The translations under genes and the position numbers were made by a program. A stretch of DNA of 64,000 nt from Planctomycetaceae bacterium. Its GTDB lineage: Bacteria; Planctomycetota; Phycisphaerae; SM23-33. Below are positions 42,122 through 54,202 of the stretch, one piece after another. A model generated the notes under the pieces. That model was not told the origin of the DNA and searched no databases. It worked only from the letters and a program-made list of their open reading frames with translations. The DNA is taken from contig JBDKTA010000022.1 in assembly GCA_039680605.1 (NCBI GenBank), positions 186,001 through 250,000 of the forward strand. The letters run 5' to 3'. Numbering within the stretch: position 1 is the first letter of the stretch; every line of letters starts with the position of its first letter.

Positions 42122-44908
42122 TCAGCGGAGGAAAGCAAGAACTGCCCTTGTCGCCTCAAGCTTGATTTTGGTTAGAGCGCTATTCGTGTGGGAGTTCCGT
42201 GCAGCACCGGTTGGAGCGATAAGACTGCAGAACTGGTTTCTGGGCTCGATGCACATGTAAATGAATTCGTTGCATTTGTTCCGCAGTACACAATACAGAT
42301 CAGCGTTGATCGCAGTCACATCCATCCTCTTGAAGTCCCCGAGATCCACCGTCATCTTTGTCCCATCAAGTCTCTGAAGATCCTTGCGCTCAGCCAACTC
42401 GTTCAGCATCTGATAAGATTCATCTTCTGTCACTGCAATGCCATCAGCACAGCCGAGTGCCTGCCAGCTTTCGTCGCTCTGCAGGCTTGCAGGTGCGTCT
42501 GCCGCGCCCACACACATACCAAGGTTGAGCCGTAGCCCTGTGCCAATTCTGCGCCAGTATTCTTCTGGGGGACAAGCCTTTGGAAACTCGCTTGGGGTGA
42601 GTTTCAACGAAGACAGTGAAGAGTCGGATCTGAGCCAAGGAAGTACAAGGCCGGCGGAAGTCCGAGTGGAAGAAAGCAAGTACAGATCTAGGGCGAAGAA
42701 GGGGAGATTGGCTACATGCGTCCTTTCTATGTGGTTGGCCTGCTTGGCCCACTTTCCAAGCTCCTCTGTGGCTTGCGCGCAGGCACGGAACAATATCTTC
42801 GGGCCTCGGGCTTCTAACTTGGCAAATGATTCCAACAATGGCTCCGGACGAAACCCACCATCGCGTAGTGATATTAGGATGTTTAATATGCCCTCTGATA
42901 AACCCGAGGCTTGAATATTCACATCTGAAAGCTCCTTGTCAACACACTCCAGATACGAATGGAACCCAACAGCCCATCGTGTATACTCACGAATCCATCC
43001 TAATGAAAGCTGGTCCTCAGGATTCAGATGCTCTTTGTAAGTGGTGAGGGCATCGAGAACCTCCCAATAGGAGGCTATGGGATCTTTCAGAATCATGCTG
43101 TGGGATGAGAGAGCAATCAACGCCTGGTGCAGTGGGCTCTTTTGTGCTCCGCCCGAAGGAAACACGGCCTCAATGGCCCCGATTGGCCTACGGTCATAGA
43201 CGAAAACGCCTATGAAAGCCCCAGCCTTCAAACTGTCGAACGCCGGATCGTCAGGGCGGAGGCAAACTCTTGGATGAGGGCCAGCCAATGGCATTGGTCC
43301 AGGGCCCGGTCTTGGCAAAGAGGGTATCTTACCCATAACAGTTACCGTCAGAAGCCCACCAAATCGAGCTTCCCAAGGCCAGACCAGCAACCCGATCGGG
43401 CAAACAGGTATTGATGGCTGACACATCTCTTCGATGGCGGCCGCATCAGCCCCATCGGCTATCCTGAACAGGAGCACAGGCGGTCTTCCCTGCATTGCGG
43501 CACCATCAAAGCGATGCTTTGAGGCAGAACGTTCCAGGAGATGAGCAACCGTATCGGAAGGGACCATATCTAGATCGATATTCCTGACTTGTATCGAGCG
43601 AATTATGCCTTCCACCAAATCCGGCAACATTTTCTTAGGTCTGAGGGCCTCCTTCTTCTTAAACCAGACGCGCTTTACAGGTTCGAGAAAGTTTGGTGAC
43701 ACTTGGTTCTCTTCGGCTACCTCTTCCAGAGTCACACCTTCATTGCTCCGGATAATGTCACATTTTAGCGAAATGGCCTCATCATCTCTCGAAAGAGCAT
43801 ATAGCGCCAGCATTTCTCGTCGCTCGGAAGATTGTCCAGCTTGCCTGTGGGGGTACTTTGCATCGTATGGAGCCCACCACATCTCTCCGATTGCGATAAT
43901 AGCTTCGGCACCTGTTCTTTCAACGTCCCCGGCAATTGCACGCCAGACGAGATATTTCTCTATTTGCTCATCCAGCTTGAGGCAAATACTTAGCATGCCT
44001 CTATCGGGCAAGAGAAGAAAGACTATAGGAACATGATAGCCATCAACAAGAAATATCTCCCGCGCACACTCGAACAACCACTCACTGGTCTTACGAAGGT
44101 TTCCAGATCCCATTTGTTCTAAGGAGATGATGGGAAAACCTCCGTACTGAGCCTTCATAACCTCCTGCCCCATCTCAGAGAAAGCGACCCTTCGTGTGAC
44201 CGCAATTCGGTCACCGTTTGAAAGCCGAACGCATATCGTCCGGAACTCGGGCTCGCCTCTCATATAAGCAGGGAGGTTGCCGATGTCGCCCGACTGTCCT
44301 GACTCCGAGGAGTCTCTGTCCAGTCTGAGAATATTCCGATCTGCGTCATGTAGAAGCTCTGACAGGACCCCGCAGGCATGTACCAATGCATCAAGCAACT
44401 CAAAGGCCGGCAGGTCTTCTGCAATCCACTTTCTTTCTATACGGACAAATCCGTCTTCCCGCACCTCCTGTGGTACTTGCCTTAAGTCCAGTGCGCCGAT
44501 TATTTCATCAACTGAGGCAAGTGGGTCCGCTTCCATCTCAAGGGAGGTGGGCTCGAAATAACAAGCGACAACAGCAATCCGGACGGTGCTCTTAGTGATC
44601 AGGTCTCCTTCTTTCACGATTTGATTTCGTGCATCAACCAACCACGTCATGATAGGGTCGTTAGCAAGACGTTCTCGCCAGGCGCCGTACCAGTCGTCAA
44701 ACTGCGGTATTTCTTTCTTCTGTTTCTGAAGTACCCATGTGACATTTCTGAGTGCCTGAATACTGGCATTTAGAAAGGTTCTGAACTCGGGTGGATCGAA
44801 GTAAGCTACGGCGGCTCGTCGCCAGAGCCTCATCGCCTCATCGAGTCTAGCGTGTGCCGTCGCCGATGGACATTTCCGCTTGCCATCGGGACTGTGCAAC
44901 ATGCCCAT
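42122..44908 (-). CDS. Large orphan protein, unknown, lower GC
   Basis: 928 residues, not recognised. Base composition is clearly lower in GC than all neighbours, and the gene stands alone between a repeat-rich gap and the secA-like gene. The N-terminal ~130 residues form a helical domain with LNASIQALRNVTWVLQKQK and WLVDARNQIVKEGD. RN followed by I/V-K recalls non-catalytic HEPN-like domains, but the RNxxxH motif is not met. The middle contains a helical segment EEVAEENQVSPNFLEPVKR. No membrane segment or signal peptide. It could be a defence or stress gene acquired by transfer; this is inference from composition and isolation only. Confidence 0.7.
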   Translation of the reverse strand: MGMLHSPDGKRKCPSATAHARLDEAMRLWRRAAVAYFDPPEFRTFLNASIQALRNVTWVLQKQKKEIPQFDDWYGAWRERLANDPIMTWLVDARNQIVKEGDLITKSTVRIAVVACYFEPTSLEMEADPLASVDEIIGALDLRQVPQEVREDGFVRIERKWIAEDLPAFELLDALVHACGVLSELLHDADRNILRLDRDSSESGQSGDIGNLPAYMRGEPEFRTICVRLSNGDRIAVTRRVAFSEMGQEVMKAQYGGFPIISLEQMGSGNLRKTSEWLFECAREIFLVDGYHVPIVFLLLPDRGMLSICLKLDEQIEKYLVWRAIAGDVERTGAEAIIAIGEMWWAPYDAKYPHRQAGQSSERREMLALYALSRDDEAISLKCDIIRSNEGVTLEEVAEENQVSPNFLEPVKRVWFKKKEALRPKKMLPDLVEGIIRSIQVRNIDLDMVPSDTVAHLLERSASKHRFDGAAMQGRPPVLLFRIADGADAAAIEEMCQPSIPVCPIGLLVWPWEARFGGLLTVTVMGKIPSLPRPGPGPMPLAGPHPRVCLRPDDPAFDSLKAGAFIGVFVYDRRPIGAIEAVFPSGGAQKSPLHQALIALSSHSMILKDPIASYWEVLDALTTYKEHLNPEDQLSLGWIREYTRWAVGFHSYLECVDKELSDVNIQASGLSEGILNILISLRDGGFRPEPLLESFAKLEARGPKILFRACAQATEELGKWAKQANHIERTHVANLPFFALDLYLLSSTRTSAGLVLPWLRSDSSLSSLKLTPSEFPKACPPEEYWRRIGTGLRLNLGMCVGAADAPASLQSDESWQALGCADGIAVTEDESYQMLNELAERKDLQRLDGTKMTVDLGDFKRMDVTAINADLYCVLRNKCNEFIYMCIEPRNQFCSLIAPTGAARNSHTNSALTKIKLEATRAVLAFLR

Positions 44909-45098: not shown

Positions 45099-47057
45099 TC
45101 ACGTCTGGGACCCGGCGAAGCCTAGATATTCGTCGAGCCAGTCGTCGGTTTTGAGGACGCCTTTGCGCTGGGCGAGGGCTTGGCGGCTGGCGGTGCGCTG
45201 GGCGCTGGTGAAGATCCGGCGGGTGAAGGGGGTGGAGATTTCGTTCTCGGCGGCGCGGTGGCGGGTTCGCAGGAGGGAGGAGCTGTGAGGGGCGTGGCGG
45301 CGGACCAACTCGTCCTCGAGGCTGACGAACGTCTCGGCGTGGCCGGGGTCGCCCTGGCGGGCGCAGCGGCCTATCAGCTGGCGGTCTACGCGGCGGGACT
45401 CGTGGCGCTCGGTGGCGATCACGTGCAGGCCGCCGAGGTCCGCCACGCCGCGAGCGAGCTTGATGTCGGTGCCGCGGCCAGCCATGTTCGTCGCCACGGT
45501 GATGCGCCCGGGCGCGCCCGCGCCGGCGACGATCTGGGCCTCCTCGGCGTGGCGCACGGCGTTGAGCACCTGGTGAGCGAGGCCGACGGCTGTCAGCATG
45601 CCCGAGAGTTGCTCGCTGGCCCGGACGCTGCGGGTGCCGATGAGGATCGGGGCGGCGGTTTCGTGCAGGGCTTTGGCGCGGGCGATCACGGCTGCCCACT
45701 TGGCGGTTTCGGTAGCGAAGACGCGGTCGGGGGCGACCTTGCGGATGCATGGGCGGTTGGTGGGGATGACGGCCACGGGCAGATGGTAGATCTGCCAGAA
45801 CTCCAGCGTCGCCTCGGCCGCGGTGCCGGTCATACCCGAGAGCTTCCTGTACTGGCGGAAGAACCGCTGGAAGCTGATGCGGGCGTGGGTGTCCTTGGGG
45901 GCCTGCACGTCGAGGCCTTCCTTGGCCTGCACGGCCTGGTGGAGCCCGTCGCGCCACTCGCGGTCGGGCATGAGGCGGCCGGTGAACTCGTCGACGATGA
46001 CGACCTTCTCGTCCTTGACGACGTACTGCTTGTCTCGGCGGTAGAACGTGGCGGCAGTCAGGGCCTGGACGACCAGCTCCTCGCTGCGTCGCCGCCGGGA
46101 CCAGGATCCGCCCAGTTCGCCCCCCAGTTCGTTCAGCCGGGTCTTTCCGGCGTCGGTCAGGTCCACCTCGCGATAGCGTTCATTGACGCGGTAGTGGGTG
46201 TGGAGTTCGAGGCGGCGGGCCAGGTCCACGGCCTGCGTGAACGCGGCGACCTGTTCGCGGTTGGGCGCCTGGCCGGAGATGATCAGCGGGGTGACGGCTT
46301 CGTCGATCAGGACCGAGTCGGCCTCGTCGATGATGGCACAGTGCAGACCGGTCTGGAGGAGCCGGTCGGTCCCGCGGCCGCTGCCCTCGACGATCTTGGC
46401 CAGCAGCGCGTCGGTGAGCCCGCGGAGCTTGCCCAGCGCCAGTCGGTCGCGGAGGAAATCGGCGGTCACTTCCTTGTTGGTGCAGTAGGTGATGTCGGCC
46501 TGGTACGCCGCTCGGCGGTCGTCGCCTTCCATCTCGCCTTCAATGTGCGCCGCTCGCAGTCCGCAGAAGCGGTAGACCTTGCTCATCCACTCGGCGTCGC
46601 GCTTGGCCAGATAGTCATTGACGGTGATGACGTGGCAGCCGCGCCCTCGCCAGCCGGCGATCGTCGCGGGCATGGTAGCCGTGAGCGTTTTGCCCTCGCC
46701 GGTGGCCATCTCGGCGATGCACCCCGCCTCGATCGCCAGCGCCCCGGCCACCTGCACGCGGTACGGCCGCTCGCCAAGCTGGCGGAATGCGACCTCGCGA
46801 ATGACGGCGAAGGCGGCTAACAGGTCGGGCTTCTTCTGGCGATTGCGGCGGAAGAGTTCACGGAAGTGCCGGGCCTGCTCGGCGAGTTTGGCGTCGGTCA
46901 GTTCGGCGAAGGATTTTTCCATCGCCAGCACCGCGTCGGCTTGGGCGAGGAACCGCCGCGTGCGGGGCAGGAGGTTGTTGGCCAGACCCAGGGCGGTATC
47001 CCAGGCAGCGTCGAGCGTGCGCGGCAAGGCCTCGCTGCCGGACGGCTGGGAGAGCAT
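45099..47057 (-). CDS. Short SecA-like preprotein translocase ATPase
   Basis: About 652 residues (ATG 47057; the frame is open to a TTG at 47084) versus 840-950 for housekeeping SecA. Walker A EMATGEGKTLTATMPA, DEADSVLIDEAVTPLIISG, the preprotein-binding region, RKLSGMTGTAAEA and the motor-2 motif ATNMAGRGTDIKLARGV, plus IGRCARQGDPG, are intact. The helical wing and scaffold is shortened, and the C-terminal zinc finger (CxCxSGxxxxxCH) is missing. It lies downstream of PqqD-M50-HlyD, GAF-HlyD and adaptor genes on the same strand. It is probably a specialised accessory SecA rather than the cell's only SecA. Confidence 0.9.
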   Translation of the reverse strand: MLSQPSGSEALPRTLDAAWDTALGLANNLLPRTRRFLAQADAVLAMEKSFAELTDAKLAEQARHFRELFRRNRQKKPDLLAAFAVIREVAFRQLGERPYRVQVAGALAIEAGCIAEMATGEGKTLTATMPATIAGWRGRGCHVITVNDYLAKRDAEWMSKVYRFCGLRAAHIEGEMEGDDRRAAYQADITYCTNKEVTADFLRDRLALGKLRGLTDALLAKIVEGSGRGTDRLLQTGLHCAIIDEADSVLIDEAVTPLIISGQAPNREQVAAFTQAVDLARRLELHTHYRVNERYREVDLTDAGKTRLNELGGELGGSWSRRRRSEELVVQALTAATFYRRDKQYVVKDEKVVIVDEFTGRLMPDREWRDGLHQAVQAKEGLDVQAPKDTHARISFQRFFRQYRKLSGMTGTAAEATLEFWQIYHLPVAVIPTNRPCIRKVAPDRVFATETAKWAAVIARAKALHETAAPILIGTRSVRASEQLSGMLTAVGLAHQVLNAVRHAEEAQIVAGAGAPGRITVATNMAGRGTDIKLARGVADLGGLHVIATERHESRRVDRQLIGRCARQGDPGHAETFVSLEDELVRRHAPHSSSLLRTRHRAAENEISTPFTRRIFTSAQRTASRQALAQRKGVLKTDDWLDEYLGFAGSQT

Positions 47058-47077
47058 TCGCCAGGTTGTGCTGGGCA

Positions 47078-47300
47078 GGGGCAATTTCCAATTTCCAATT
47101 TGGAATTTACAATTTCCGATTGAACAACATTGGCCGGGGGACTACCGGGTGCCATGGCGGTCGTTTCTCAGCCGCCATGCTTGCGGCACGACGCGGTCGG
47201 GGACATGGCGGCGGGATAACGGCCGCCATGGCACCCAGCTACTGATTACCGATTACTGATTACCGATTACTGATTACCGATTACCGATTACCGATTACTA
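47078..47300. repeat. Composite of three repeat families upstream of the secA-like gene
   Basis: CAATTTCCAATTTCCAATTT (47078-47124); an ATGGCGG...CCGCCATG palindrome pair (47147-47179 and 47202-47238), the first matching the linker repeat at 10189; and eight perfect units of GATTACC/GATTACT (47244-47299) whose far end touches the stop codon of the M50-HlyD gene (47298-47300). Confidence 0.85.
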
Positions 47301-49517
47301 AATACGGAATCGTTTCTGCACCACCTGCGTCAATTCGTGCCACCACTGGACGGCCAGGGGTTTGGCGGGCAGGTCGATTCTCGCCACGACGCGCTGGCGG
47401 GGCAGCAGTCGCAGGGCCTGCGCGTCGCCCGCCGCGTCCGGCACGATACGCAGTTCGAAGAACGCCTGCGCCGCGGTCATTCCCTGGCGGTCGTCCGTCT
47501 TGGTCTGCACCGACCCGCCGGCGGCGTATCCCAGGGCGGCCGAGGGCAGGTTCTCCTGTGCGGCCTTGAAGATCGCCTCGATGCGCCCGCCGAGCGGCCG
47601 TCCGCCGACGGTCACGTCCGGCCGACCCTGGAGGCGTACTTCGACGTTGAGCCCCGGGTCGCGGGCCAGTTCGTTCATCAGCACGGCGGCGACGTCCTGC
47701 TTTGCGACAGCCCGGATCAGCAGGTGGTCCATGTCGGCCACGACCCCGATCTGGCGGTCGCGGCTGAGGAAGGCGCCCTCGTAGCGGTCCAGGTCCGGCG
47801 AGACCCACAGGCCGTCGATGGGCGCTTTGATCGTCAGCGAGTCCAGTTGCCCCTTGAGGTCGGCGATCTTCTTGTCCATCGCCTCGATCATCGCGTCGAG
47901 CACCTGCACCTCGGCGGCGTTTTCCGTGCGGGCGATGGCCCGCTGGGTCTCCAGCGCGCTGCGGTTGTGCTGGTGGGCCTTAAACTGGGCCTCGAGCTCC
48001 GGATTGGCCAGCACCGCCAGCACCTGCCCGCGTGTGACATTTTGCCCCGGCGTTGCGACGATGCGCTGCAGCACGCCCTCGGCAGCAGGATAGATCACCT
48101 GCATCTGGCGCGGCTCTGTGACGCCCTCGACGCGCGTCGTGTCGCCGGCGCGCACCAGGCCCAGGCCCCCCGCCAACAGCGCCGCAGCGAGCAGCACGCC
48201 AGCCACCGCACGGCCGCGAACGCGGGCCAGCTCGGGGCTCGTCGCCAGGTAGTACACGAACTTGCCCAGCGGCGCCGCGACCCACGCCCCGGCGGCCGCC
48301 ACGGCCAGAATCGCCCCGACGAAGAACAGCTTGTCGGCGATGAACGCCAGGATTCCCACGCAGACGACCACGCGGTAGACCGTCGAGGCCGGTCCGTAGA
48401 AGAGGAACCACGCCTTCTCGCCGGCCGAGTGTGCCGGGTTATCCGCCTTCGGGACCGACCAGAGGTACCGCTTGACCAGGTAGTAGAGGTACTGCTTGGA
48501 GCGGCCGGCGAGGTTGGGAATCTCCAGCAGGTCCGAGAGGATGTAATAGCCGTCGTACCGCAGCAGCGGGTTGAGGTTGAACAGCAGCGTCGAGACGCCC
48601 GCGATGAACATCACGTTGTAGGCGATGGCGTTGAGCGGCGTGGGCGTGGGGCTGAAGGTCATCGCCCAGACGATCGCGGCGACGGCGGCAACGCCCAGCT
48701 CGACGAGCATTCCGGCGGCCCCGACGATCACGCGCTGGAACTTGCTGCGCAGGGCCCAGGCGCTCGAGGCGTCGACGTAGGGCATGGGCGTGAAGATCAG
48801 CATCATCACGCCCATCGCATGCACCTCGCCGCCGCCCCCGCCGGCGAGACCGAACTTCTTGCAGGCAAAGGCGTGGCCGAACTCGTGGAAGAGCTTGATG
48901 AAGATGAAGCTGACGTACAGCAGCGGCAGGTTGGCGGTTTCGAGCACGCCGGCGCCGCGCGAGAGCAGCTCGTCGCCGCGCCCGGCCAGCAGGTAGGCGG
49001 CCGCGCCCACCAGCGCCAGCAGGATCACCGCGCCGACGGGACCAAACAGCCCGCCCAGGGCGCCGGCCCAGCGATCGAGGAAGTTGTTGGGGTCCAGCAG
49101 CGGGATTCGCACGAACAGCAGGTTCGACAGGCGTCCGCGCATCTCGCGGCTGACGCGCTGGTGGTGGCGATTGAACAGGCCCCGCGCGTCGGGGGGCACC
49201 TGGGCGGCCAGCAGGTTGCTGGTGTAGAGCTGGCCCAGCAGCGAGATGACTTCGCCCTGCGTGGGGGCCTCGTCGGCGAGTTTGTCGTTGCAGATTTTCC
49301 AGGCCTGCTCGACGGTGCGTTTGCCATCGAGCAGCCCCACCAGCATGTACGCCGGTTCGTTGAGGCGGAAGAACTGATTGCTCGAGGGGTCCTGCAGCAC
49401 GTGCCACATCTGCCCGCGGAAGAACTGGCGGCTGACCTGCACCGTGCCCCGCAGGCGCGGCGTCAGGGACGTCACGCGGTACCACGACTCGCTGAATGTC
49501 GGACGTTGTATCGGCAT
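47298..49517 (-). CDS. PqqD-like, M50 membrane metalloprotease and HlyD adaptor fusion
   Basis: 739 residues. Residues ~30-110 resemble the PqqD/RRE-type peptide-binding fold (GQMWHVLQDPSSNQFFRLNE, LDGKRTVEQAW). Residues ~155-450 are a multi-helix M50 site-2 protease with HEFGH (211-215) and the third zinc ligand in NLNPLLRYDGYY (Asp322). From ~470 the chain is a HlyD-type adaptor with a lipoyl half-motif (YPAAEGVLQRIVATPGQNV) and a coiled coil. The combination suggests capture of a peptide or protein, intramembrane cleavage and hand-over to an exporter. It is third of four genes with two more HlyD proteins and a SecA-like ATPase. Confidence 0.85.
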   Translation of the reverse strand: MPIQRPTFSESWYRVTSLTPRLRGTVQVSRQFFRGQMWHVLQDPSSNQFFRLNEPAYMLVGLLDGKRTVEQAWKICNDKLADEAPTQGEVISLLGQLYTSNLLAAQVPPDARGLFNRHHQRVSREMRGRLSNLLFVRIPLLDPNNFLDRWAGALGGLFGPVGAVILLALVGAAAYLLAGRGDELLSRGAGVLETANLPLLYVSFIFIKLFHEFGHAFACKKFGLAGGGGGEVHAMGVMMLIFTPMPYVDASSAWALRSKFQRVIVGAAGMLVELGVAAVAAIVWAMTFSPTPTPLNAIAYNVMFIAGVSTLLFNLNPLLRYDGYYILSDLLEIPNLAGRSKQYLYYLVKRYLWSVPKADNPAHSAGEKAWFLFYGPASTVYRVVVCVGILAFIADKLFFVGAILAVAAAGAWVAAPLGKFVYYLATSPELARVRGRAVAGVLLAAALLAGGLGLVRAGDTTRVEGVTEPRQMQVIYPAAEGVLQRIVATPGQNVTRGQVLAVLANPELEAQFKAHQHNRSALETQRAIARTENAAEVQVLDAMIEAMDKKIADLKGQLDSLTIKAPIDGLWVSPDLDRYEGAFLSRDRQIGVVADMDHLLIRAVAKQDVAAVLMNELARDPGLNVEVRLQGRPDVTVGGRPLGGRIEAIFKAAQENLPSAALGYAAGGSVQTKTDDRQGMTAAQAFFELRIVPDAAGDAQALRLLPRQRVVARIDLPAKPLAVQWWHELTQVVQKRFRI

Positions 49518-49521
49518 CTTG

Positions 49522-49580
49522 GTGGCACAGCCTTTCCAGGCTGTGCTCCTCTAAGACACAGGCTGGAAAGCCTGTGCCAC
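49522..49580. repeat. Inverted pair of CACAGGCTGGAAAGCCTGTG repeats
   Basis: Copies at 49522-49545 and 49557-49580 between two cluster genes. The stop codon (TAG) of the GAF-HlyD gene ends on the first base of the repeat. Confidence 0.85.
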
Positions 49581-51457
49581 TACAACCACAGCTTCATGCG
49601 GACCCAGTTCACCAGGCGGCGCGACCAGAGCCACCCCAGGGGTTTCTTGTCCAGGTCGATCTTCGCCACGCCGGTCATTCCCGGTCTCAGCCAGGGCGGC
49701 GTGGAGTGGAGCCTGACGCGCACCTTGAAGACGTTGTCCTGCTCGGACACCTCCGCCAGCGGCGTGATGCGTTCGACCGTGAAGGCGATGCGCTGCTGCG
49801 GGTACGACTCGCTGGCCAGTTCGCCGCTCTGCCCGACGCGGACGGGGGTGATCTGGTCTTCGCTGACTGACAGGTCGGCGTACAGGTCGTCGACCGGCGC
49901 CACCTCGAACAGCACGTCGCGCCGCGAGACCGGAACGCCGATGCGTTTCTTCAGGTCCCCTACCAGCACCAGCCCCGCCACCGGCGAGACGATGCGGGCC
50001 CGCTTGATCTGGTCGCCCAGCAGCTCGGCCTCGACGCCGGCGGCAGCGGCGTTCTCGCGTGCGATCTGCGCCTCGGCGGTCTTGCCCTCAGCCATCGCCA
50101 CGTCGGCCTGCTTGGTGAACTTGGCGCTTTCGGTGACCGCCCGGCGGAGCTGGGCCTGCAGGTCGCGCGTCTCGAGCTGGGCCAGCACCGCGCCGGCCTC
50201 GACGCGGCTGTCGGGTTCGACGAACGTCTTCTCCAGGTAGCCGTCGAAAGGCGCGGTGATGACCCGGCGTTGGGCGGCCTCGGTCATGAACGACGCCTGG
50301 GCCTGGTAGTCGCCCTGGACAAAGATCAGGCACAGCACGGCCGCCAGGACGCCCGCGGCAGCGAGCTTGGCCCAGGTGTGCTTGGGACCCAGCACCCCGC
50401 CCAGCCCGCGATACGCGCTGGAGGCGATACGCGCCCCCGCCCAGCGGTCAGTCTCGCGCAGAGCGATCAACCGCGCCGAAGACAGGTCCAGCACCAGGCG
50501 GAGGGTCTCGGCCTCGTCCAGAACGAAGGGCTTCTCAAAGTCGCGCTCGAGCACGAGCACGGCTTCGGGCCGCCCCGCCCGCCTCAGCGGCAGCGCCAGC
50601 ACCGAGCTGGGACCCTGGCGGCGGGCCAGCTCTCCGCAGGCGCGGCTGACGTAGCTGGCACCCTCCGGCGCGGGGTAGAGCACCTCCACGTCCTGGTCGA
50701 TGCACTCCTCGGCGGCCGCCTCGATATCTTGCACGAGCTTCATCTTGCGGCTGAACTTCTCGGTGTGGCTGGTGGCGGTCAGGATGACATAACGCCCCTT
50801 GAGGAATCCGACCGACACGCGGTGGCACTGCCATCGCGCGGCCAGTTCGTTGCACAGCGCCATGGCCGTGGCGGCGAATCGTTCATGGGCATTGACGGCA
50901 GAGAGCACTTCCATCGCCGCGCGCAGGCGGGCGAAGTCGCCCTCGCGCCGCTGCTGCGCCAGGCGCATCTCGTAGAGGCTCAGCAGACTGGCTGACAGCT
51001 CCAGCCGCTGGCGCGCCGCGGCGAGCACGCGCGAGTCGGAGCTTTCGATCAGAAACGCCGCAGTTGCGGGGGAGCAGTTGTCCGTCGAGACGGACATGAC
51101 CAGCAGGTGCTGGGCGGCATTCTGTCCGTAGAGTTCGCTGCCCTGATGCAGGGCGTGAAGCGAGGTGCGCCCCTTGGCGAGGGTCTGCGGGGCCAGTTGG
51201 GCCGCGGTGGCCAACCACGCCGGCGCGGGGGCCTCTGGCGGCGGAGGCGGATATACAGCCGCCACCTCGACGGTTCCCGCGTCGTTGCGGCGAAGGATCG
51301 CCCCGGCCGAAGCGGCGCTGAGGCGGCACTGAACGGTCAGCAGTTCCAGAAGGAACTGCTGGGCCGGACCGTTAAAGCGGCGCAGGCGCTCGACGAGATC
51401 GAGCGCGCCCGACAATTCGGCGCTGCCGCTGGACGATTGCGTTTGGCTGGTTGTCAT
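49580..51457 (-). CDS. GAF-domain HlyD-family membrane adaptor
   Basis: 625 residues from ATG 51457 (a GTG at 51469 is possible). The N-terminal ~360 residues are cytoplasmic, with two GAF-like segments (around LLELLTVQCRLSAASAGAIL and ATAMALCNELAARWQCHRVS). A single transmembrane helix follows at ~365-385 (LAAAGVLAAVLCLIFVQGDY), then a periplasmic HlyD-type barrel-sandwich and coiled coil (VITAPFDGYLEKTFVEPDS, IVSPVAGLVLVG). The architecture implies a sensor or assembly domain inside and an adaptor outside. It begins about 20 bases after the small adaptor gene's stop, so it is translated as part of the same operon. Confidence 0.85.
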   Translation of the reverse strand: MTTSQTQSSSGSAELSGALDLVERLRRFNGPAQQFLLELLTVQCRLSAASAGAILRRNDAGTVEVAAVYPPPPPEAPAPAWLATAAQLAPQTLAKGRTSLHALHQGSELYGQNAAQHLLVMSVSTDNCSPATAAFLIESSDSRVLAAARQRLELSASLLSLYEMRLAQQRREGDFARLRAAMEVLSAVNAHERFAATAMALCNELAARWQCHRVSVGFLKGRYVILTATSHTEKFSRKMKLVQDIEAAAEECIDQDVEVLYPAPEGASYVSRACGELARRQGPSSVLALPLRRAGRPEAVLVLERDFEKPFVLDEAETLRLVLDLSSARLIALRETDRWAGARIASSAYRGLGGVLGPKHTWAKLAAAGVLAAVLCLIFVQGDYQAQASFMTEAAQRRVITAPFDGYLEKTFVEPDSRVEAGAVLAQLETRDLQAQLRRAVTESAKFTKQADVAMAEGKTAEAQIARENAAAAGVEAELLGDQIKRARIVSPVAGLVLVGDLKKRIGVPVSRRDVLFEVAPVDDLYADLSVSEDQITPVRVGQSGELASESYPQQRIAFTVERITPLAEVSEQDNVFKVRVRLHSTPPWLRPGMTGVAKIDLDKKPLGWLWSRRLVNWVRMKLWL

Positions 51458-51476
51458 AGGCACCTGCACGCCAGGG

Positions 51477-52361
51477 TCAGTCGGTCTTGTCCGGGTCGAT
51501 CGCCGCGGATGGGCGCGTGGTTGCCGAGGCGGCCGCGGTCGACATGGTAAATCTCACCGTGACGTGGTCGCCGCCGCCGCGGGACTGGGCATTGGGAATT
51601 TCCACGCGGATGGTGCGGGTCTGGCTGGCCGCGTCGGCCATCGCCGCCACATAGACCACTTTGGCCTCGATGACGCGCCCGGCGCCGAAGTCGACTTTGG
51701 CCGCGTCGCCAAGCTTGATCGCCGCGGCCTGCTCCACCGGAACCGGCGCGTCGGCCCAGAGCGGGTCGATCACCACCAGCGTCATGATTTTGGCCTGAAG
51801 GTCCACCGATTGTCCGACCTGTCCGATCACGTCCTCGACCTGCCCGTCGACGGGGCTGACGATCGCCATGCGCTCGAGCTGGGCCTGGGCTTCCTGGTGC
51901 TTCAGGACGTTCAGCTCCTGCTCGTGGCGGGCCAGCGCCAGCGACAACTCGCCGATGGTGACCTCAAGCCGCGCGTGCTCGTATTCGTACTTGCTGGCGA
52001 CCTGCTTCTTGAACAGCCCTTCCGTGCGCTCCAGGTCCACGCGCTTCTGAGCGAGTTGTGCCTCGGCGGCCTTGACGCGGGTCTGATCCTCCGCGGCGGC
52101 CTTGAGCTGGGCGGTCTTGAGCCGCTCGGCCGAATCGTCCAGCCGCGCCAGCAGTTGGCCCTTGCGGACGGGCTGGCCGGCCTTGACGGGGATCTCGGCG
52201 ATTCGTCCCGGCACGACGAACGCCAGCGTGACGTTATCCCGCGGGCGCGTCAGGGCCTTGATGCCCCCCTCCTGCGCCAGGGCGGCGGAGGCGGAGGCTG
52301 TACACAATGCGATGAGCGTCAGAGCGAGTTTGTGCAGAGTCAAAGCATGTCTCCCCGGCAT
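51477..52361 (-). CDS. Periplasmic adaptor of the HlyD/RND type
   Basis: 294 residues. Signal peptide (LALTLIALCTASASAALAQ), then a barrel-sandwich hybrid (LAFVVPGRIAEIPVKAGQPV and IVSPVDGQVEDVIGQVGQSV) split by a coiled-coil hairpin, then a beta-barrel. No transmembrane anchor beyond the signal. First gene of the four-gene cluster. It would bridge inner-membrane partners to an outer-membrane channel; no TolC-like channel is in the window. Confidence 0.88.
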   Translation of the reverse strand: MPGRHALTLHKLALTLIALCTASASAALAQEGGIKALTRPRDNVTLAFVVPGRIAEIPVKAGQPVRKGQLLARLDDSAERLKTAQLKAAAEDQTRVKAAEAQLAQKRVDLERTEGLFKKQVASKYEYEHARLEVTIGELSLALARHEQELNVLKHQEAQAQLERMAIVSPVDGQVEDVIGQVGQSVDLQAKIMTLVVIDPLWADAPVPVEQAAAIKLGDAAKVDFGAGRVIEAKVVYVAAMADAASQTRTIRVEIPNAQSRGGGDHVTVRFTMSTAAASATTRPSAAIDPDKTD

Positions 52362-52463
52362 GAGGTCCCGTTATCAAGACTATTGTACTGAAACTGGGGG
52401 TGGGAAGTTCAGATTTGTTCACCCGCCAAGGAACTATACTTGAAGCTGAACAAGGAGAAGCCC

Positions 52464-52805
52464 ATGGCCGACCGGAACGAGTCGAAGGCGCCCCAGGACC
52501 AGGACCCCGCCCAGAACAAGAACGTCTCCGTGCGCGTGGACGAGCGCACGATGGCCACGGTGTACGCCAACGTCGTCCTCAGCCACGCCTCGGAAGAGGA
52601 AGTGATGCTGGACTTCGGCGTCAAGGGGGTGGCCCCGCCCCAGGACCCCAAGCAGCCCGAGGTCATCCTGCAGATCACCAATCGCGTGGTGCTGAACTAC
52701 TTCAGCGCCAAACGCCTGGCGATGGCCCTGTCGCAACTCATCCGCCGATACGAAGACCAGTTCGGCGAGATCGAACTCGACGCGAGCAAGAGAAAGAGAT
52801 CTTAG
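52464..52805 (+). CDS. DUF3467 family protein
   Basis: 113 residues. The start at 52464 has AAGGAG six bases upstream. NVSVRVDERTMATVYANVVL, EEEVMLDFGV and NYFSAKRLAMALSQLIRRYE match the DUF3467 pattern, a small alpha/beta protein of unknown function common in Planctomycetota and Bacteroidota. Divergent from the HlyD/SecA cluster. Its TAG stop is the start of an AGATCCT-type heptamer run (52804-52818). Confidence 0.85.
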   Translation: MADRNESKAPQDQDPAQNKNVSVRVDERTMATVYANVVLSHASEEEVMLDFGVKGVAPPQDPKQPEVILQITNRVVLNYFSAKRLAMALSQLIRRYEDQFGEIELDASKRKRS

Positions 52806-52904
52806 ATCCTCAGTCCTTGATGCCGATGGCAGATGAATGCTGGGCGCTGTATCATTCCCAGCCGCTGCTGCTACGCATCTTCCCGTCTTGTCTCGGAGTG
52901 CGTC

Positions 52905-54202
52905 ATGAAAAGATTGATGTTCCTTTTCTTCTCTCTGATCCCTCTGTGCCTCTGTGGTAGTCTTTTGGCCCAGGCGTCGCAGCCGGCGTCCAAGGGCGCG
53001 CGCTATCATCCGCCGAGCAAGTGGGTGCTGGGGCCGTGGTACGGGACGGGGTTTCCGGATTTCGGCAGAAGCTGCGGCAGCTATGGCAAGACGCTTGAAG
53101 ATGAGATCAACTACGACCTGGACAACCTCATCAAGCACGACATCCCGATCACGTGCTACCACTGCGACGGCACGTCCTGGGCGCGTAACGACACGATCAC
53201 CCTCAGTGATGCGATGATCCAGCGGCTGCGGGAGAAGAAGATCCGCCTGCTGCTGCACCTGTGGGGGCAGGACGACCTGCCTGGGCGTCGACTGGGGGCG
53301 GGCTGCGGACGGGCATCCGCCGCGTGTTTTCAAAGAGCCAGTTCCTGCCCGCGCCCTACAACGAGTTCACGGCCTACGACGTTGACAAGAACCGCCGCCC
53401 GGCCGAGGAGGTCTATTTCCGCCGTCTGCATTGGGGCTCGATGCAGGTCGTGATGGACAACAGCCCCTGGGTCGATTGCGACCCCTGGACGTGGGGCTAC
53501 AGCCCAAAGCTCCTTGACGCCTACCGGTACTGGTCGTGGCTGCACCTGGAACTGGCGGCATACCTGCACAGTTACGACTACCACGCCTACGAAACCAACG
53601 AGATGATCTTCCGCCAGCCTAGTCCCGAAAAGTATGCGACGAAACTGGGCGAAGAGATCTTTGTGGCCTACGTGACCGATGCCATGACGGAACTGGACAT
53701 CGAGCTGCCGCCAGGCGAATGGATCAATTACTGGGACCAAAGCCAGGTCGTCAGCGGCAAGATCAAGTACCCCGTGCCGCTGGGCCGCGAGCCCATCTTT
53801 GTCCGCAACGGCTCACTGATTCCCCTCGACGTCAGTCGCGCGTACACCGGCCACGGCACCGCCGAGTCGGCCGGCAGCCTGACGGTGCTGGTCTTCCCCA
53901 GGGGCCGGTGCGCGTTCAAGTACCGCGACGTCGGGCTGGACGCCTGGGTAACATTTCAGGCCGTTCAGGAAGGCGACGGGCTTACGCTTGCGGCTTCGCG
54001 GGCGCCTTCTCAGAACGTGCTGTACCGCATCGCCGGCGTGGCGGCGCTGCAGTCGGTGGGCGTGGAGGGGCTGTCCGTGAAGATCAACCAGGGCGGCACC
54101 CTCGCCCGCGCCGCATCGGAAAAGGAAGTCAACGGCGCCGCGTCCAGCGCGTGGTTTTATGACGCCGCCGCCAAGCGCCTGATCGTCAAGCTATGCCGCT
54201 GA
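52905..54202 (+). pseudogene. GH31-like glycosidase, internally deleted and frameshifted
   Basis: From ATG 52905 a signal peptide (MKRLMFLFFSLIPLCLCG) leads into KWVLGPWYGTGFPDFGR and IPITCYHCDGTSWARND, the N-terminal part of a GH31-type barrel. At about 53270-53290 the frame changes to one reading RRVFSKSQFLPAPYNE, ELAAYLHSYDYHAYETNE and EWINYWDQSQ, typical of the GH31 C-terminal barrel and beta domains. The middle, including the catalytic nucleophile region, is missing, so the gene is about two-thirds of normal length. The signal peptide is encoded partly by a CTCTGTGCCTCTGTGG dispersed repeat (52931-52962). Confidence 0.75.

Follow-up and report, generated by a model that had tools for sequence, protein, structure and literature searches.

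A short SecA, a PqqD-M50-HlyD fusion and HlyD-type adaptors as a probable export machine for proteins with an LEPR-XLL-type leader

We report on a gene cluster of a Planctomycetaceae bacterium which, including the mechanistic steps proposed below, is probably a dedicated export machine for large surface or extracellular proteins with an N-terminal leader of the LEPR-XLL type. The cluster lies in a stretch of 64,000 nucleotides (assembly GCA_039680605.1, contig JBDKTA010000022.1, positions 186,001 to 250,000), which we call the window. That LEPR-type proteins have an export system of their own is well supported; the details of how export proceeds are offered as a hypothesis. A preliminary description of this DNA had proposed an undescribed export and processing system, and this proposal holds: the cluster is conserved, a full-length SecA is encoded elsewhere in the genome, and giant proteins bearing the leader are co-encoded and co-occur with the cluster. 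Because the probable cargo and its leader could be identified, the locus is more informative than its four genes alone.

The genes follow each other on the minus strand in the order HlyD, GAF-HlyD, PqqD-M50-HlyD and short SecA (Table 1), tightly spaced as one operon. Coordinates and common strand of these four genes had been described correctly, and their domain reading is supported by Pfam and NCBIfam matches, which recognize three HlyD-type proteins in the window. The four-gene set is thus real but incomplete, as a DUF3467 protein had been missed as fifth component. Its reading frame opens at 52440 with TTG, and the ATG at 52464 is favored by the homologues. The interval C22:186001-250000 contains no ABC ATPase and no member of the TolC/OEP family, as had been claimed. 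The lack of TolC is true of the window, but some relatives co-encode a TolC-type channel, and a TolC-type gene is present elsewhere in the genome of the window. Neither a substrate gene nor TolC adjoins the cluster in the window itself. Just downstream of the short SecA a protein of 928 aa is encoded (42122-44908, minus strand), which we rejected as a component, having found neither a Pfam/NCBIfam match nor a homologue in the cluster loci. On the other side a GH31-like gene (52833-54202, plus strand) is apparently broken or shortened, with two overlapping open reading frames in different frames (52833-53453 and 53261-54202), the latter with the GH31 C-terminal domain.

Table 1. Position of the cluster genes and of selected domains in the window
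Feature	Position	Strand	Remarks
Short SecA, 661 aa	45099-47084	-	TTG start; NBD1, PPXD, NBD2 and first scaffold-helix turns only
PqqD-M50-HlyD fusion, 739 aa	47298-49517	-	Pfam/NCBIfam; AF2 model, pLDDT 89.3
PqqD/RRE-like predicted leader-binding domain of the fusion, residues about 14-106	49200-49478	-	PF05402 above cut-off; model match to 6jx3
Zinc motif HEFGH (H211, E212, H215; partner D322) in the M50 domain	48873-48887	-	Invariant in 53/53 aligned homologues
Periplasmic HlyD/MacA-type adaptor part of the fusion, residues 455-729	47331-48155	-	Model match
GAF-HlyD, 629 aa	49580-51469	-	GAF region in the cytoplasm and HlyD in the periplasm, with one TM between (about residues 364-382)
Free periplasmic HlyD/RND-type adaptor, 294 aa	51477-52361	-	RND_mfp 1.5e-37, above cut-off
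DUF3467 protein	52464-52805	+	PF11950 3e-21; divergent, beside the operon

The short SecA matches SecA_DEAD (1e-100), P-loop_SecA and SecA_PP_bind; of the Pfam and NCBIfam models SecA_SW and SEC-C are not matched, in line with the earlier statement that the zinc-finger tail is lacking. SecA_DEAD, PPXD and NBD2 are found in 44/44 members of the short SecA family, and SecA_SW in two of these 44, weakly in both. The Walker A motif reads GEGKT, and GEGK is invariant in the 44 homologues. The protein aligns to residues 18-650 of the 901 residues of E. coli SecA, and its alignment with B. subtilis SecA stops at residue 606-609. From this end point we take it that the protein lacks the wing, the two-helix finger, which is the part of SecA that enters SecY, and most of the scaffold. 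The preliminary description had suggested looking for a second, full-length secA in the same genome; we found one coding for 1233 aa with SecA_SW and SEC-C. The organism thus has another SecA besides the short one. SecY is encoded once in the genome. In a phylogenetic tree 49 short SecAs are split from 17 long SecAs, among them those of E. coli and Priestia and an L. reuteri SecA encoded beside a secY gene, by one branch with 100% support. The housekeeping SecA of the group is itself unusually long, with 1233 aa here (L102:6046-9744, G000) and up to 1436 aa in relatives, an extra length for which its Pfam domains do not account.

In the M50 fusion HlyD domains are matched in addition to PqqD, and with HExxH and a distal Asp the protein fits the M50/S2P intramembrane metalloproteases; PF02163 is matched in 48 of its 53 homologues. 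The best NCBIfam match is a daptide-type HExxH metalloprotease (2e-45), below the curated cut-off: the fusion scores 155.6 vs 300 bits for NF041824 and 34 vs 225 for NF058609. In the AF2 model the adaptor part matches MacA, AcrA and MexA with Z about 16, and residues 18-105 match the lasso-peptide B1 protein with bound leader (Z 10.2, rmsd 2.6, 83 residues). Judged by its predicted fold, the PqqD part resembles a leader-binding RRE domain. As to the GAF-HlyD protein, the HlyD assignment stands; the GAF domain (PF01590) falls short of its cut-off in the protein from the window (E 0.003) but is secure in the family, where 35/39 homologues match it. The free HlyD starts with a signal-like hydrophobic segment (residues 11-29). 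The DUF3467 protein is the sole one of its genome, and its gene, on the opposite strand in the window, lies inside the operon in many relatives. It is modeled as a small beta-beta-beta-alpha fold (pLDDT 80.6) whose best PDB match reaches Z 4.9; SecB is not among the matches listed.

We surveyed 197 sampled genomes of the phylum for the M50 fusion, excluding weak matches to HlyD or protease alone. A clear homologue is present in 44/197 Planctomycetota genomes, and most of the sampled relatives from the family and order encode the short SecA, at 51-71% identity. Within 12 kb of the M50 fusion (52 loci) we found GAF-HlyD at 45, the short SecA at 42, the free HlyD at 37 and DUF3467 at 31 loci; all five gene families come together at 21 loci and four of them at 17 more. 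This clustering is far beyond chance. DUF3467 is encoded in 28/44 genomes with the M50 fusion vs 11/153 others (p=3e-14). HlyD-DUF3467-GAF-M50-SecA is the commonest gene order at the 52 loci, and other orders of the same genes are found at L091, L095, L098 and L100, which argues for a common function rather than an inherited order. The cluster is thus kept in many families of the Planctomycetota, and also on plasmids of Alphaproteobacteria. Otherwise similar loci from Thalassospira (L165), Azospirillum (L164) and an E. coli plasmid (L166) carry no SecA, and some Planctomycetota families (f28; L219, L220, L235, L237) encode the short SecA away from the M50 fusion. The role of SecA may therefore be auxiliary, and since versions devoid of it exist, SecA may be replaceable.

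The alphaproteobacterial operons came to light in a search of plasmids for the M50 fusion, and they point to the cargo. Here one or more giant genes are followed by DUF3467, GAF-HlyD, M50, SecA and HlyD. In Methylosinus TolC comes after HlyD; by locus, an adjoining TolC is co-encoded in L157 and L165. The giants beside the plasmid operons have 3,500 to 12,900 aa (about 12,900, 12,700, 10,600, 10,500 and 8,800 codons from record coordinates), and all open with an LEPR-x-LL leader; two are annotated as 'LEPR-XLL domain-containing'. The leader stands at the N-terminus in all nine alphaproteobacterial loci with a readable giant gene (L155/167, L156/168, L157/169, L159/170, L161/171, L160/243, L162/245, L158/244 and L165/175, the last being the SecA-less Thalassospira locus). 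Examples are EALEPRFLLSAD, ETLEPRYLLSAD and EQLEPRLLLAAD. In sequence the leader is a K/R-rich stretch followed by LExRxLL, devoid of a long hydrophobic core. A SapC-family gene (PF07277) lies in or beside some of the alphaproteobacterial clusters (L155:16263-17084, L244:12069-12848). The SecA-less relatives have variant leaders, namely LEPRFMFDAA on the Azospirillum plasmid and LESRQLFDGA, followed by DUF4347, on E. coli plasmids. The cluster of two adaptors and M50/HlyD from the latter (L166, L173, NZ_CP081687.1) was matched in 24/5,426 E. coli genomes, in 22 of the 24 over most of its length; it is mostly plasmid-borne and, where read, stands behind TolC and a DUF4347 protein of 4,459 aa with the LESRQLFDGA leader.

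These plasmid operons also bear on whether, in the manner of daptide biosynthesis, small peptides are trimmed by the PqqD-M50 part and then exported by the HlyD proteins. Such a RiPP-like maturation system would agree with the daptide metalloprotease as best NCBIfam match, below cut-off as it is, and with the RRE-like domain, which in lasso systems binds RiPP leaders. We regard it as very improbable, as the annotation of the plasmid operons shows no ABC exporter, radical SAM protein or modifying enzyme and the consistent neighbors are kb-scale giant genes with a common leader.

In the Planctomycetota, leader genes are found directly upstream of GAF-M50-SecA (L152) and in or near the cluster (L098, L100); in L237 one immediately precedes a short SecA gene that is not linked to the M50 fusion. 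A protein of G048, with an open frame of 9,725 aa, has LEPRTLFSG and behind it a region similar to that which follows the E. coli leader LESRQLFDGA. The genome of the window has one leader protein, G000:C54 (L144), with the leader MDPAFGPKFEQLEDRLLLS and the motif LEDRLLLS; its gene is not adjacent to the cluster. The protein contains Big_9/cadherin-like repeats, GH115_C-type modules and a beta-helix. It is the one real match of a codon-pattern search of this genome; the others are mostly chance matches, with a control of the same order. The leader proteins vary in size, starting from about 440 aa, and 'giant' is not apt for all of them. Those at L098:4922-8434 and L100:5390-8920 have a cyclophilin-type prolyl isomerase domain before the Big_9 repeats.

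For the co-occurrence of leader and machine NF012209 was rejected as sole detector: it finds 9/197 genomes, and the match in G153 (L110) apparently lies in a spurious frame. As these were too few, we built a 24-column leader profile (alignment A9, E<=0.01) and searched the 197 phylum genomes with it, all frames being free. The matches that we examined begin 22 to 131 residues past the upstream stop despite the all-frame search, and are thus real N-terminal leaders. The leader was matched in 18/197 genomes, and 18/18 carry the M50 fusion, which is present in 44/197 overall (Fisher p=7e-14). After removal of the seven genomes that gave seed sequences, 11/11 leader genomes have the fusion (p=2e-8), and at the level of families it is 11/11 vs 24/77 (p=4e-7); these p-values take close relatives within families as independent. 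At the profile threshold, 26 of the 44 M50-positive genomes have no leader match. One might argue that we deal with a cluster of adaptors for multidrug or metal efflux with chance neighbors, and that the LEPR proteins merely have the same taxonomic spread. The adaptors do resemble AcrA, MacA and CzcB; the operons are, however, linked to giants in two phyla, there is no pump, and the co-occurrence is complete at the family level. We therefore give this explanation hardly any credence.

We suggest that export by the machine proceeds as follows. In the cytoplasm, the LExRxLL leader would be captured by the M50 fusion through its PqqD domain with the RRE-like fold. As ATP-driven unfoldase or pusher, the short SecA would then act at a membrane complex formed by the M50 fusion and GAF-HlyD, in which GAF might serve as a regulatory gate. 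Together with the free HlyD, the two adaptors anchored in the membrane could build up a tube through the periplasm that leads to a TolC-type channel in the outer membrane; this channel would be drawn from the genome's own set where the operon has none. The M50 domain may clip the leader during or after export, and DUF3467 could be a small accessory protein or chaperone. The whole machine would be a type I-like tripartite system in which SecA and the M50 membrane domain replace the ABC transporter. This scheme of leader reading, SecA push and adaptor conduit is drawn from the RRE-like and MacA-like model matches and from the reduction of SecA to its core; the leader on the co-encoded and co-occurring giants and the invariance of the M50 catalytic residues lend its steps indirect support.

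How the inner membrane is crossed is the point on which we are most cautious. A SecA-derived motor of the NBDs and the preprotein-binding domain, independent of SecY, might drive RRE-selected giants through the M50/HlyD complex to TolC; we hold this to be possible, a little short of an even chance. With the same reserve we suggest that RRE would then read both the LEPR-XLL leader and the LExRxLF leader of the DUF4347 giants. Alternatively, the short SecA might feed the housekeeping SecYEG in the manner of SecA2, the M50/HlyD/HlyD set coming into play later and serving processing and outer-membrane passage only. The SecA ancestry of the motor, the one SecY of the genome, which could be shared, and the adaptors retained in the SecA-less variants are compatible with such a route. 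It is nevertheless unlikely in our view. The module of wing, scaffold and two-helix finger is missing, SecA_SW being weak and confined to two homologues, and the observed leaders, K/R-rich and then LExRxLL, have no long hydrophobic core. Furthermore, the presence of a TolC gene beside adaptors anchored in the inner membrane points to a conduit that is passed in one step.

In the open-access literature we found no description of a machine joining SecA, HlyD and an M50/site-2 protease or PqqD, nor of a cognate exporter for LEPR-XLL or DUF4347 giants; LEPR-XLL is named in two papers, DUF3467 in one and DUF4347 in four, and an LEPR-XLL protein of ~8000 aa is mentioned merely in passing in a Vibrio paper (PMC10868602). 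The components of the machine come from known families. LEPR-XLL proteins of 8,000 to 13,000 residues are among the largest bacterial proteins, and a probable exporter can now be proposed for them, with a PqqD/RRE-like domain as the proposed leader-recognition domain. RiPP-style leader reading would thereby be tied to giant-protein secretion, and a SecA that may work independently of SecY is implied. The proposal is testable in cultured alphaproteobacteria, for example Methylosinus, Ensifer and Thalassospira.

Type I secretion (HlyB/HlyD/TolC, and the export of giant adhesins of the LapA type) shares with the present system the HlyD-type adaptors, a TolC-type channel in some loci and giant repeat-rich substrates, Ig- or cadherin-like, in the same operon. 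In contrast, the ABC transporter is absent here, the plasmid operons having none annotated among their core genes or next to these, and a SecA-type ATPase is present instead; moreover, the leader is N-terminal and conserved in sequence, and an M50 protease is fused to the adaptor. Accessory Sec systems (SecA2/SecY2 or SecA2-only) likewise use a second SecA paralogue, and large surface proteins are likely cargo. Here, however, SecA is truncated after NBD2 and thus without wing, scaffold and two-helix finger, it is grouped with HlyD and M50 proteins rather than with a second SecY, and the secY-linked L. reuteri SecA lies across the fully supported branch from the short SecAs. The daptide protease and the YydH-LiaK epipeptide protease are similar as HExxH intramembrane proteases, the daptide type also by its PqqD-like N-terminus; they differ by the HlyD fusion found here, by scores far below the cut-offs and by the likely substrates, which are large proteins and not RiPPs. 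Closest in gene content are the SecA-less TolC-HlyD-HlyD-M50/HlyD clusters of the E. coli and Azospirillum plasmids, with the same fusion and adaptors, a giant with an LExRx(L/M)F leader and TolC in those seen, although SecA and DUF3467 are absent from the cluster. Finally, the LEPR-XLL proteins (NF012209) and the DUF4347 giants are the leader family itself, publicly annotated beside these operons.
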